Positions 10,719-26,927 of a stretch of 64,000 nt of DNA are shown here, piece by piece. The notes beneath the pieces were generated by a model that did no database searches, had not been told where the DNA came from, and saw only the letters and a program-made list of their open reading frames with translations. Origin of the DNA: Iodidimonas sp. SYSU 1G8. GTDB lineage: Bacteria > Pseudomonadota > Alphaproteobacteria > SMXS01. The translations under genes were made by a program, and so were the position numbers. Numbering within the stretch: position 1 is the first letter of the stretch; every line of letters begins with the position of its first letter. The stretch lies in assembly GCF_039655775.1 (NCBI RefSeq), contig NZ_JBBYXJ010000002.1, positions 558,001 to 622,000 of the forward strand. The letters run 5' to 3'.

Positions 10719-12254
10719 ATGCTGCTGTCTCTCGGCCTGCGCCGCACCGCGCAACTTCGCGGACACCACGCGGCGATCATCGAGCCGGGCAGGCAGCTCA
10801 ACTGGACCGAGGTCGAGAGCCGGGTTGCCCGGTTCGCCTCGGCCCTGCGCGGCCTCGGCGTCCGGACGGGCGACCGGGTCGCCGTCATGGCCGACAATGC
10901 CGGCTGGCATATCGAGGCCTATTTCGCCATCCCGTGGGCGGGCGCGGCCATCGCGCCCGTCAACACGCGCTGGGCCCTTCCCGAGATCATCGACAGCCTG
11001 AACGACTGCGCGCCGCGCGTGCTGATCGTCGATGACGCCCATCTGCCGCTGCTGGGCGGCGTGCTCGCGGGCGCGCCCTCCATCGAGACCGTGATCACCA
11101 CCGGCGCGGGAGCGGCGTCAGGGGCGCACGATCTGGAAACCCTGATCGCCATGGCCCGGCCCATGCCGCCCGAGCCGGTGGACAAGGACCAGCTGGCCGG
11201 CATCTTCTACACCGGCGGCACCACGGGCCGCTCCAAGGGCGTGATGCTCAGCCAGAACAATCTCTACATGCACAGCCTGATGATGATCGCCGAGGACATG
11301 TTCCACGCCGATTCCGTGGGCCTGCATGTGGCGCCCATGTTCCATCTCGCCGATGTTGGCACGGTGATGGGCGTGACCATGGCGGGCGGCAGTCATGTCT
11401 GCCTGCCCCGGTTCGAGCCCGCGGCGACCCTGCGCGCCATTCAGGATCACGGCGTCACCGAGGTCTATCTGGTCTCGACCATGCTGCGCGCCGTGCTCGA
11501 CGATCCGGGGTTCGACGAGTACGACCTGACCTCGCTGCGCGGCATGATCTACGGCGCCTCGCCCATCGCCGAGGCGCTGCTGACCCGCGCGCTGGAGAAG
11601 ATTCCCACCGCCGGCTTCATGCAGCGCTATGGCATGACCGAGACCACCGGTTTCATGACCTTGCTCAAGCCGCCCTTCCAGGTGGTCGGCGGCGCCAAGC
11701 TGCGCTCGGCCGGTCAGCCGATCCACGGCGTCGACGTGCGCGTGGTCGACGCGCATGGCGACGAGGTGCCGCGCGGCACCATCGGCGAGGTGGCGGCGTC
11801 CGGCCCGACCATCATGCTCGGCTATTGGGGCCGGCCCGAGGAAACCGCGCAGGCGCTGCGCGGCGGGCGCATGTTCACCGGCGATCTGGGCCACATGGAC
11901 GAGGACGGCTTTTTGTTCATCGCCGACCGGCTCAAGGACATGATCATCTCGGGCGGCGAGAATATCTATTCGGGCGAGGTCGAGAACGCGCTCTACCGTC
12001 ATCCGGCGGTCGCCCAATGCGCCGTGATCGGAGTTCCCAGCGAGAAATGGGGCGAGGCCGTCCATGCGGTGATCGTCCCGCGCGACGGCCATGACGTCAC
12101 CGCCGAGGCGCTGGGCGCCCATTGCCGGTCCCTGATCGCGGCCTACAAATGTCCCAAGAGCTACGAGTTCCGCACCGAGCCGCTGCCGCTCACGGGCGCG
12201 GGCAAGGTACGCAAATATTCGCTGCGCGAGCCTTACCGGAACGCCGCGCATTAG
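10719..12254 (+). CDS. AMP-dependent acyl-CoA synthetase/ligase
   Basis: This 511-residue adenylate-forming enzyme activates a carboxylic acid to its CoA thioester through an acyl-AMP. The P-loop-like A3 motif is YTGGTTGRSKGVMLS, then GMTETTG, the hinge FIADRLKDMIISGGENIYSG, and the catalytic lysine in TGAGKVRK near the C-terminus. It is the last gene of the MFS-phosphotransferase-dehydrogenase operon and probably supplies the CoA thioester for that pathway. Chain length and substrate are not readable. The 268 bases after it, up to 12522, hold no gene I can support. Confidence 0.92.
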   Translation: MLLSLGLRRTAQLRGHHAAIIEPGRQLNWTEVESRVARFASALRGLGVRTGDRVAVMADNAGWHIEAYFAIPWAGAAIAPVNTRWALPEIIDSLNDCAPRVLIVDDAHLPLLGGVLAGAPSIETVITTGAGAASGAHDLETLIAMARPMPPEPVDKDQLAGIFYTGGTTGRSKGVMLSQNNLYMHSLMMIAEDMFHADSVGLHVAPMFHLADVGTVMGVTMAGGSHVCLPRFEPAATLRAIQDHGVTEVYLVSTMLRAVLDDPGFDEYDLTSLRGMIYGASPIAEALLTRALEKIPTAGFMQRYGMTETTGFMTLLKPPFQVVGGAKLRSAGQPIHGVDVRVVDAHGDEVPRGTIGEVAASGPTIMLGYWGRPEETAQALRGGRMFTGDLGHMDEDGFLFIADRLKDMIISGGENIYSGEVENALYRHPAVAQCAVIGVPSEKWGEAVHAVIVPRDGHDVTAEALGAHCRSLIAAYKCPKSYEFRTEPLPLTGAGKVRKYSLREPYRNAAH

Positions 12255-12522
12255 ATCCTTTAGAACATGAACGAGGTTTCCAACGAAAGCTGGCGCGATT
12301 GCGTGGCAGTTCATGAATCTGGTCGGCCTGCATCCCTTCCCGACCACTCGGAGTCACCGTAAACCCAATGCGAATAGGGAATTAAGATTCATGACAAACG
12401 AATCCTGAAGCTAGTTAGGATCGACCGCTCTAACTGTGCATGGCGGCCCCGCTTTCGGCCCGCTGCGACCTATTGACGAGCAGGCTGTCTTGATCTCTGA
12501 TAGGGGAAATGGGGGGCTCGTC

Positions 12523-13257
12523 ATGCGTATTACATTTGTATTTGCGGTCGGTTTCATACTCTCGGGCGGGAATGACGCGTTAGCCCAGGACTGCCCCATG
12601 CCAAATGCGCTGCCATCCGAAGGGACATATTCGGGCATGACGCAGGAACAGGCTGAGCCGCTGATGAGTAGCGATCTGAAGCAGTTTCACGTGGCCATGA
12701 TGAAGTGGCGTGATTGCAAAATCGCTTACTTTCAGCGCCGGATGAACTCTCAAGGCGGAAAATTCGAGACCGTAGAAGACGAGACCTTGAAGATGTTTGA
12801 CTTCATTCGAAGCGCTCTTAGAGAACGCCAGCAATGGTATCGAACTCAATTGTCAAACCTACCATCTTCAGCGAAATTTAACTCGCCAAGCGATTCCTCT
12901 AAGACACAGCAGGATGCAGAAATGCAGCCAGGATTTCAACGGGGTGCCCCGAGTAAGAGCGCGACCGCTAACCACCCCAATGATCCACCAACGTCAACAC
13001 ACGCAGCTGAGCGGGAGGATCCTACAGATCAATACGGAGCTTCTTGCGGCAGGGTCGAGCCTGGCCGTAATGATGGGCAGTTCATTAAGTATTCTGCAGA
13101 AAATCGCTGCGACGGGAGTATTCGTATAGAAGGAAAAATTGGGCGTTATCCAGTCGGCGGACCCATCGGCCCTGGCCAAATGATCGAAATGACATGCATT
13201 GTTGTGTCAGGTTTGTGTGGAGACGGCAATCTATCCTATACATTTTATCGCATGTAG
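12523..13257 (+). CDS. Secreted protein of unknown function
   Basis: I do not recognise this gene. The 244-residue product starts with a clear signal peptide (MRITFVFAVGFILSGG, cleavage likely after DALA). The mature part begins with a Cys, has a charged helical middle (about residues 40-120), a low-complexity Ser/Pro/Thr-rich linker, and a C-terminal segment with two cysteines (ENRCDG and MTCIVVSGLCGDG). The ATG at 12523 was chosen for the signal peptide; a longer in-frame start at 12436 would bury it. Base composition is visibly lower in GC than its neighbours, which suggests recent acquisition. It stands alone between two catabolic units. Confidence 0.6.
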   Translation: MRITFVFAVGFILSGGNDALAQDCPMPNALPSEGTYSGMTQEQAEPLMSSDLKQFHVAMMKWRDCKIAYFQRRMNSQGGKFETVEDETLKMFDFIRSALRERQQWYRTQLSNLPSSAKFNSPSDSSKTQQDAEMQPGFQRGAPSKSATANHPNDPPTSTHAAEREDPTDQYGASCGRVEPGRNDGQFIKYSAENRCDGSIRIEGKIGRYPVGGPIGPGQMIEMTCIVVSGLCGDGNLSYTFYRM

Positions 13258-24402: not shown

Positions 24403-24457
24403 TCACCCATAGCATCAATGATTAAGAATGTTTACGTGATCACCTTCGGAGATGATG

Positions 24458-25057
24458 ATGTTGCCTTCTTTTCCAGAAATTGAAGATCACTGCGCCGGGG
24501 AAGCCCAACGAGCGATTGACCGAAAGATGATACAGATATCCCCGATACTAGGGGAGATTCGCCGTCATGTACAATTTGAAGGTGACGGATCAATAATATT
24601 TCGCGCTGATCAAAGCATAGGCCATTCGCCGCTTGAGACAGTGTCGTCAGAAGTAACCTCCTCACGCATGCCACTTCATAGATTTAGAAATGAAGAACTG
24701 CCGCGGATCATTGACGAGATTGCTCGACAAAAGGCAGAAGCGCTCACCAAGCAGCTATTCGACACTGTTGGTCGCGCAACAGCAGAAACGGGCAACGTCG
24801 TAGATGGAGGCGGAAAGCCGTTGGACGAAGACCTCCTCCTCCAGATACTTGAAAAGTTGGAGCACACTTTTCACCCTGACGGCACTTGGAACCCTCCCAC
24901 TATGGTGGTGTCCCCCGAAATAGCAAAGCGGCTAGCCGAATCCGCCGGCCCTGATGGGCTGGGGTCTAAAAATTTTCAGATGTCCCTGCAGAAGATAGTA
25001 TCGAGAAAGAGAGATGAGTTCCGTAATCGAGAAGCTAATAGAGTCTTGGCTGGATAG
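24458..25057 (+). CDS. Unknown protein, first gene of an AT-rich two-gene cassette
   Basis: I do not recognise this protein of about 199 residues. It has no signal peptide or membrane segment, looks mostly helical, and is acidic in its middle part. A charged helix (RIIDEIARQKAEALTKQL) precedes a Gly-rich turn (GNVVDGGGKP) and the segment PTMVVSPEIAKRLAE. Three ATGs run in tandem after CGGAG; the third, at 24458, has the best spacing. The reading frame overlaps the nuclease gene by 44 bases, so the two are very likely translated together and act together. The island is far richer in A and T, and in rare codons such as ATA and AGA, than the flanking genes. Confidence 0.65.
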   Translation: MLPSFPEIEDHCAGEAQRAIDRKMIQISPILGEIRRHVQFEGDGSIIFRADQSIGHSPLETVSSEVTSSRMPLHRFRNEELPRIIDEIARQKAEALTKQLFDTVGRATAETGNVVDGGGKPLDEDLLLQILEKLEHTFHPDGTWNPPTMVVSPEIAKRLAESAGPDGLGSKNFQMSLQKIVSRKRDEFRNREANRVLAG

Positions 25058-26666
25058 CCAAACTGAACGTAGATATCAACCAGCCTTTGTGCAGTTATTA
25101 ATAGCGGAAGGTTGGCGGGTGCTTCATAATACAAGGCACTCACCAATTGAATTTGGAAAGGATATAATAGCAAGAGATCCCAAAGGCGACCTTTATTGTA
25201 TTCAATTAAAAGGGGACCCCGGCGGGAGATTGCGAAAAAGTGCTGCGACATCAATTATTCCGCAGCTCATAGAGCTTATAGAGATCGCTCCTGCGCAGGA
25301 TTTTCTAGTATCGTCGGATGAGCGGTATATATCCGTTCTAGTGACCAATGGTGAGATTGACGAGGAAGCTCGACTAATTTTAGGTAACCTCGCCAGCAGA
25401 ACGGAACAGGAAAGGTGTCCCTCGGTACGATTCGAAATATGGAGTAGGGGTGACCTGTTGGCTAGATTTATAAGTGCGTCTAAAAGCATCTGGCCAACAA
25501 CACCAGAGGGGATGCGCAGGATATTGGCTCTGTTTACGTCCAATGGAGAGGGCACGCCCAGCCCCAGAGATATTTCAGGCGCGCTTAGTTTGATTTCATC
25601 GAGGCCTCAAGAAATAAAAGAAAGTCAAACATCTATAGACTCTTTTCTAAACAAGACTATTTTGCTTGTGGAGATAATAAAAAATCCATGGCTTCAACGC
25701 AACAATCATTTTTCTCTATTCGTCATATCAGTGATTTCGAGCATGTATATTTTAGGTTCTTGTCGCAGTGAAAAAGACATACGGAGGGTGGAGCAATACG
25801 CCACATCTTGTCTTGTTCACATAAAAGACCTTATAGAAGAAGCTCGCGATAAAAATTATGATCCTGGTCTTTCTTGGGTTCAGAAGAATATTTTTAGTGA
25901 CTATGAAATTATGTGGGAGAGAAGAAATATAATTGGATTATGCGCGGCAGTTCTTGTGCTTTCTTCATCAACTATTATGCGAAAAGACTCAGAATATATT
26001 AAATCTCTATTGATAGAATCTTTAAAGGACCCTCAAATTTGGGGTGCAGCGTGTATTCCAAGCATAATAATACGTTATTGGGCGTCTTGTAGATTAAAGG
26101 CTGATTTGGAGCCCGAGTCAATATTTATTCAAATAGTTAACACTATATTTTGTTTGAACGTTCATAAGAAAACATATTTTCCTGCGCTGCCCTCACCTTA
26201 CTATGATTTTGTAGATTGCTGGGCATACCATCACGATATTAGATATTTTGGAGAAAATAAAATATGGGATGACGACTTTAGTAACAGGATGTGGTTCGGA
26301 AGAGCAGTGATGTTTATTTTGGCCAAGCGCAACTGGAAACAGACATGCAAAAGACTATGGTCGCGCTTTTCTCGCATATCTCATGAGGAGCCGGAATTTA
26401 CTTCCAACAATTTTTTTGACCCGAGCTACCACAACGAAGGAAAAATTGAGACTTACATGTTCCACGAAGGAGGCTGGGATGCATTGGTCAACAGTGCCAT
26501 TGATTCTGGCATTGAGCCTCAGTTAGATAGGCTTGGGAAACTATCTTGGCTAGTGGCGGCTTACATTGCGCTCGTGCCGTACAGGGGCTCAACTACATTA
26601 ATAATGTGGTTAGACAGCGAATTAAATTCGACTTGGTACAATGATTTTCACCGTCCAAGCTCGTGA
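25014..26666 (+). CDS. Mrr-like restriction endonuclease-fold protein with large C-terminal domain
   Basis: The 550-residue protein starts with a PD-(D/E)xK-type nuclease domain (about residues 15-155). FVQLLIAEGWRVLHNTRH leads into EFGKDIIARD, giving the catalytic Asp (D50), and YCIQLKGD gives the QxK pair (Q64, K66) that is characteristic of Mrr-type enzymes. FEIWSRGDLLARFI ends the domain as in related nucleases. The remaining 390 residues are helical and Trp/Tyr-rich with no family I can name; one stretch (HFSLFVISVISSMYILG) is hydrophobic but may be a buried helix. It overlaps the upstream unknown gene by 44 bases. A defence role against foreign DNA is the simplest reading, not proven. 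Confidence 0.7.
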   Translation: MSSVIEKLIESWLDSQTERRYQPAFVQLLIAEGWRVLHNTRHSPIEFGKDIIARDPKGDLYCIQLKGDPGGRLRKSAATSIIPQLIELIEIAPAQDFLVSSDERYISVLVTNGEIDEEARLILGNLASRTEQERCPSVRFEIWSRGDLLARFISASKSIWPTTPEGMRRILALFTSNGEGTPSPRDISGALSLISSRPQEIKESQTSIDSFLNKTILLVEIIKNPWLQRNNHFSLFVISVISSMYILGSCRSEKDIRRVEQYATSCLVHIKDLIEEARDKNYDPGLSWVQKNIFSDYEIMWERRNIIGLCAAVLVLSSSTIMRKDSEYIKSLLIESLKDPQIWGAACIPSIIIRYWASCRLKADLEPESIFIQIVNTIFCLNVHKKTYFPALPSPYYDFVDCWAYHHDIRYFGENKIWDDDFSNRMWFGRAVMFILAKRNWKQTCKRLWSRFSRISHEEPEFTSNNFFDPSYHNEGKIETYMFHEGGWDALVNSAIDSGIEPQLDRLGKLSWLVAAYIALVPYRGSTTLIMWLDSELNSTWYNDFHRPSS

Positions 26667-26813
26667 TTCTGCCTAGGTCAATATGGATCAATTGTTATTA
26701 GATGGCTAACTCTGAGAGTCAGATATTCCATCTACCAGTAGTATCTTGTCGAAACCGACAATAGATTGAGTATCCTTATCGACCCCTGTGGAAGGTGGAG
26801 TTGCGTCATCACC

Positions 26814-26927
26814 ATGTCCCGTCCCACCGGTAGCGCCGATCTGCCTTTGCACAATGGAAGGGGGCCGCTCCGGCTGGCGGCGCGGTGATGGGCGAGGGGG
26901 TGGTGCATCACTGCAGGCGCGGCTGAC
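26814..26927 (+). pseudogene. Decayed 5' fragment of a DUF763 gene
   Basis: An ATG preceded by GGTGGAG opens 24 codons (MSRPTGSADLPLHNG, then RGPLRLAAR) that match the start of the intact DUF763 protein at 29798 (MARRAGSADLPLHGG, then HVPKWLADR) almost position by position, and then hit TGA. After a deletion of about seven codons and a frame change, similarity resumes as EGVVHHCRRG against EAIVHHYGRD. It stops where the dioxygenase gene starts. It is therefore the first 45 or so codons of a lost DUF763 gene, lying next to the right edge of the AT-rich island. Confidence 0.7.

Follow-up and report, generated by a model that had tools for sequence, protein, structure and literature searches.

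A rare two-gene family that joins a constant small protein to an exchangeable nuclease or caspase-like effector and probably serves in virus defence

A foreign cassette downstream of tyrC

Downstream of tyrC, the window (the whole stretch of 64,000 nucleotides from Iodidimonas sp. SYSU 1G8 that was analysed) carries a 2.4 kb cassette with two overlapping genes, which we call A and B (Table 1). The GC content of the cassette is 0.44, compared with 0.66 for the remaining window. Calculated per 1 kb, it is 0.71 at 23-24 kb, 0.42-0.46 at 25-27 kb and 0.70 again near 27 kb, bearing out the abrupt change in composition after tyrC that an earlier note on this DNA had described. The pair is flanked by tyrC and a dioxygenase-like gene, and the flanking genes of the window are ordinary metabolic and signalling genes. 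A second open reading frame that is locally AT-rich in this GC-rich window lies at 12436-13257 (273 aa, GC 0.52).

The right edge of the cassette is formed by the 5' remnant of a gene, which matches the start of an intact gene located beside the tyrC site in another genome of the genus (L034). We take both to be of the DUF763 type, a family name that does not rest on a profile search. A full-length relative of the remnant is found further along the window, near 29.7-31.0 kb. Flanking repeats that could mark the cassette were looked for and none were found, no tRNA is present, and scans for promoters and terminators returned sites no more numerous than in shuffled sequence.

Table 1. Positions of the cassette, its genes and domains in the window
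Feature	Position	Strand	Description
AT-rich foreign cassette	24403..26812	+	Between the tyrC stop codon and the 5' DUF763 remnant; GC profile
Gene A, constant partner	24458..25057	+	199 aa (201 aa from ATG 24452); soluble, helical by prediction
A/B overlap, 44 nt	25014..25057	+	One stretch of DNA writes both invariant W12-L13-D14 of B and the conserved C-terminal L-x-G-stop of A
Gene B, effector	25014..26666	+	550 aa; N-terminal Mrr-type PD-(D/E)xK nuclease domain and C-terminal helical domain
Nuclease domain of B, about residues 1-158	25014..25487	+	Alignment, structure model and Mrr_cat matches of homologues
C-terminal helical domain of B, about residues 159-550	25488..26663	+	AF2 model; without family match
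5' remnant of a DUF763-type gene	26814..26891	+	Right edge of the cassette; reads MSRPTGSADLPLHNGR...stop

The two proteins of the cassette

The open reading frame of A (24452-25057) starts with three ATG codons in a row. The third, at 24458, is most likely the start of the gene because the family alignment begins at 'MLP', the residues with which most nuclease-type relatives of A start. This agrees with the length of about 199 residues given in the earlier note, and its statement that the first gene matches nothing known holds as well: neither A nor B has a significant match in Pfam, NCBIfam or PADLOC, and PADLOC-DB 2.0.0 contains no match to either window protein at E values up to 10. The structure model of A is modest (pLDDT 74, pTM 0.47), consisting of long helices and a short hairpin. 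Hydropathy predicts no transmembrane segment in A, given that the maximum over 19 residues is 0.22 for the window protein and does not exceed 1.23 among 13 homologues. Weak matches to SU10_MCP (E 0.086) and phrog_371 (E 0.31) raised the idea that A could be an HK97 capsid-like decoy. The single match to A in the phage collection is one of the A-caspase loci described below, and Foldseek with the model of A against viral models and the PDB returned no structural match; we regard the idea as unsupported rather than excluded because the model is poor.

The nuclease domain of B contains nine invariant residues (E10, E18, R19, H42, E46, K49, D50, Q64 and K66). The earlier note had assigned D50 and Q64-x-K66 to an Mrr-type site; these positions are correct, and they are invariant in the eight closer proteobacterial nucleases. 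A more distant nuclease from Rhodococcus has equivalent GKD and QxK motifs, and the catalytic D ... (E/Q)xK motif of Mrr-type nucleases is present and conserved in the B family. In the Pfam search the window protein itself has no match to Mrr_cat (PF04471), the homologue from locus L014 scores 13.1 bits, below the cut-off of 21, and the Rhodococcus homologue reaches 22.8 bits. According to the AF2 model (mean pLDDT 78.6, pTM 0.78), the core, an alpha-beta structure, follows the helix-strand order of the PD-(D/E)xK fold: D50 comes just before strand 51-54, and Q64 and K66 lie in the strand next to it (60-66), a placement compatible with one site for the three residues. In Foldseek, about 100-117 columns of this region were paired with EndoMS (prob 0.97) and Card1 (prob 0.89), with no E value below 0.001; the top match of B, the LmuA nuclease, is insignificant (E 0.13). 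Beyond the nuclease core, the model is nearly all helix. These are the roughly 390 residues that had been left without assignment, and they remain so after searches of Pfam, NCBIfam and PADLOC. WD-40 matches of the B profile in the PDB, covering 29 residues, were ignored.

Rare relatives in which A is constant

Beyond the window we identified 12 related loci, eight with an A-nuclease pair and four in which A is accompanied by a caspase-like protease. All statements made here rest on these 13 loci because the family is rare, occurring in about 1 in 80 to 1 in 400 sampled genomes. A scan of a genome collection with B recovered five full-length homologues, 25-40% identical, from Sphingomonas azotifigens, Pelagibacterium xiamenense, two gammaproteobacterial MAGs and one alphaproteobacterial MAG. 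A sample of 385 genomes of the class searched with B added one more (G139), and a search with the L014 homologue led to the more distant nuclease, on a Rhodococcus qingshengii plasmid, which matches the B profile in the nuclease domain, over residues 11-132, and whose partner is recognised by the A profile (47 bits; hhalign E 6e-11). Homologues of the nuclease that never occur with the first gene would have spoken against the pair as a unit; in each of the seven loci to which the nuclease alone had led, A lies immediately upstream. Conversely, each of the five loci found with A alone carries an effector, a nuclease in G614 and a caspase-like protease in a Sulfitobacter pontiacus plasmid, a faecal scaffold labelled Bacteriophage sp. 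(MT835554.1), G951 and G814. The scaffold, an unverified 'phage' record, is probably a bacterial fragment and carries Gabija genes in addition to the A-caspase pair. On the Sulfitobacter plasmid (CP144550.1) there are two copies of A, near 11769 and 342949, with identical search scores. The viral contigs of IMG/VR yielded no relatives of any of the three proteins (A, B and the caspase), and A is absent from nine other genomes of the host's order. Marginal matches to A from the class-wide search (L005-L010) were judged spurious, L006 for example being an aminotransferase, and a partial match over 58 residues in a gammaproteobacterial sample (L049, E 9e-4) was not accepted.

Gene A lies 5' of the effector gene in 13 of 13 loci and the two genes overlap in all of them, which extends to the whole family what had been called an obligate overlap of 44 bases in the window. 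The overlap is not due to chance because it measures 44 nt in four loci (the window, L011, L012 and L019), 35 nt in five (L013, L014, L015, L020 and Rhodococcus) and 4 nt in all four caspase-type loci. Moreover, the identities of A and B are correlated across the nine nuclease loci (r=0.91, Mantel 2/5000). No conserved third gene was found among the neighbours of the loci. The methyltransferase, ATPase and transposase that the earlier note had reported as lacking beside the pair are not conserved with the pair across loci either, and no cognate methyltransferase or specificity subunit was found; as that note had argued, this is not a classical restriction-modification system.

The four caspase-like effectors, encoded downstream of A, are 625-637 aa long and match Peptidase_C14, the PADLOC 'caspase' profile or metacaspase structures; within PADLOC they match solely the generic 'caspase' profile. 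His85 (GHG) and Cys134 (DAC) are invariant in all four. By hhalign, the A profile of the nuclease loci is homologous to that of the caspase loci (prob 99.6, E 1e-23), and on the tree of A, in which most inner branches are weak, one single change of effector suffices. Because A persists where a caspase-like protease takes the place of the nuclease, it is A, common to all loci, and not the enzyme that appears to define the system. As far as sequences can tell, the exchange also argues that A carries the specificity or control of the system. An explanation that starts from the enzyme instead would be a type IV-like restriction, in which the C-terminal domain of B recognises modified or foreign DNA, the Mrr-type domain cuts it, and A is an accessory for folding or DNA binding. 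The Mrr_cat match of a homologue, the predicted PD-(D/E)xK core and the absence of a methyltransferase nearby would all fit such a role. Nonetheless, we consider it improbable: it leaves unexplained why homologues of A stand beside caspase-like proteases, enzymes for which DNA is not a substrate, and profile searches recognised no DNA-reading domain in the C-terminal half of B.

In a profile-profile comparison with hhalign, the C-terminal half of the nuclease type aligned with that of the caspase type over its whole length (E 0.01) at a score of 27.9, compared with at most 21.6 in 60 column shuffles. Single caspase sequences, by contrast, scored no better than 92 unrelated decoy proteins and so did not uphold the similarity. 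This is a hint at most that the C-terminal halves, which are only weakly alike, may be homologous. It is possible that in B this domain is the region that binds A or takes part in sensing. A shared domain matters for another explanation, namely that the pair is toxin-antitoxin-like, with A acting purely as the antitoxin of a nuclease or caspase that is constitutively toxic, and sensing nothing itself. The pair would then maintain the element that carries it, or defend just when A is lost or degraded. The gene order and overlap of A and B resemble the usual type II arrangement, in which the gene of a small protein comes first and runs into the toxin gene, and the two proteins co-evolve as an antitoxin and its toxin might. 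On the other hand, B is a large, two-domain protein, and a simple toxin would not need some 390 residues past the catalytic domain; A has no match to a DNA-binding family; and one antitoxin family serving two unrelated folds would be unusual unless it bound a shared domain, which is no more than hinted at by the comparison above. A plain antitoxin seems unlikely to us.

Genomic neighbourhood and the case for defence

The gene tyrC is 83-84% identical in six genomes of the same genus, and the sequence downstream of it differs or the site is empty. In G039 the site is empty and a histidine-kinase gene, the same gene that is located at 27.7 kb in the window, follows about 70 bp after tyrC. In G744 (L034:3839-5335) the site is occupied by a gene with a GC content of 0.44, encoding a 498-aa AAA/STAND-like and TIR protein that matches the candidate defence family PDC-S59 and adjoins the intact DUF763-type gene. 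Given that the tyrC site holds this other AT-rich AAA-TIR gene in G744, it receives different defence-type cargo, pointing to a defence insertion hotspot after tyrC in the genus. In G167 (L036:5397-6017) a gene with a DUF433 domain follows tyrC; DUF433 proteins are often antitoxin-like.

In other loci, the neighbours of the A-effector pair include Gabija GajAB, Dsr1, AbiJ_NTD3, HEPN-MNT and DUF4365. The faecal scaffold (L022:20662-24830) carries a complete Gabija GajA/GajB pair, and in G614 (L019:10145-12477) a DUF4365 gene and AbiJ_NTD3 plus a DUF559-like gene lie directly 3' of the pair, a region that is likely a defence island. No recognised defence neighbour was seen in L012, L013, L015 and L020, among the minority of neighbours that were profiled. 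Alternatively, the pair could be ordinary cargo of mobile DNA that serves housekeeping or competition and has no part in phage defence, and several of the homologous loci do lie among metabolic genes. However, this reading has to contend with the Gabija, Dsr1, AbiJ_NTD3 and HEPN-MNT neighbours of other loci and with the AAA-TIR gene at the tyrC site of a same-genus genome, and we hold it to be very improbable. The variable site and the neighbouring defence genes that the earlier note expected of a defence cassette are thus both found, and its reading is supported: neighbourhood, foreign composition, variable site and type of enzyme all suggest defence, and the family probably acts against viruses.

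Proposed function

We favour, with moderate confidence, the reading that the two genes form an immune module, with A regulating or triggering a toxic effector that can be swapped. The small soluble A would be the constant regulatory part, binding the effector and keeping it silent. Upon perceiving an invader, A would release or activate the effector. In the window the N-terminal Mrr-type domain of B would then cut DNA, either that of the invader or the cell's own, and the outcome would be restriction or abortive infection. In the sister loci a caspase-like protease would act as the effector in place of the nuclease, with A kept. The sensing role of A is a guess because the protein has no recognisable fold, and its sequence fits a sensor, an activator or an inhibitor alike. 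More tentatively still, A could be the first recognised member of a new family of immune sensors or switches, present in Pseudomonadota and on an actinomycetotal plasmid, that gates two unrelated killing outcomes, Mrr-type DNA destruction or caspase-like proteolysis. If so, the pair would offer a minimal two-gene model of how one control step is coupled to different execution domains, including the caspase route. Because the pair is conserved and compact and its catalytic residues are known, it lends itself to a direct test of whether A senses or inhibits.

Comparison with known systems

Neither protein belongs to any named system in the libraries searched, and no description of the A-effector family was found in the literature searched, which did not include subscription papers and preprints. 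The closest enzymatic parallel to B is with the Mrr-type restriction endonucleases (PF04471), with which it shares D50 and Q64-x-K66 in the expected strands; unlike these, B carries a large C-terminal domain and has an overlapping partner gene.

In EACC1 two-gene systems, the 5' gene encodes the constant component, EACC1 itself, which spans the membrane with a single segment, and the 3' gene encodes an effector that varies and often has a caspase domain; in these systems it is usually the caspase that is constant and the C-terminus that varies (Kaur et al., 2020; PMC7159879). The pair described here likewise places a constant gene 5' of a variable effector gene, with caspases among the effectors. 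However, A lacks a transmembrane segment and has no EACC1 match in Pfam, the N-terminal enzyme is the part that is exchanged, and where the 3' gene of EACC1 systems has an N-terminal caspase, the window has a nuclease, caspases being found in four relatives only. Canu loci, which lie in defence islands, combine the gene of a caspase-family protease with separate partner genes; their nuclease, a gated pro-nuclease of the metallo-beta-lactamase type, is encoded 3' of the caspase (Tuck et al., 2025; PMC12799240). A caspase-family protease alongside a separate partner gene is common to both, whereas A is located upstream of the caspase, matches no MBL family and has no HxHxDH motif.

The likeness to Lamassu lies in the combination of a constant regulatory part with an exchangeable effector. 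In Lamassu, constant LmuB and LmuC are joined to an exchangeable LmuA effector, and the SMC ATPase is needed. By contrast, no SMC-type (LmuB-like) ATPase or other third gene is conserved beside the pair, and there is no PADLOC match. By analogy, the pair may work like an EACC1- or Lamassu-style module while belonging to neither. A constant component with an exchangeable effector is a known plan, which is here built on an undescribed protein family.
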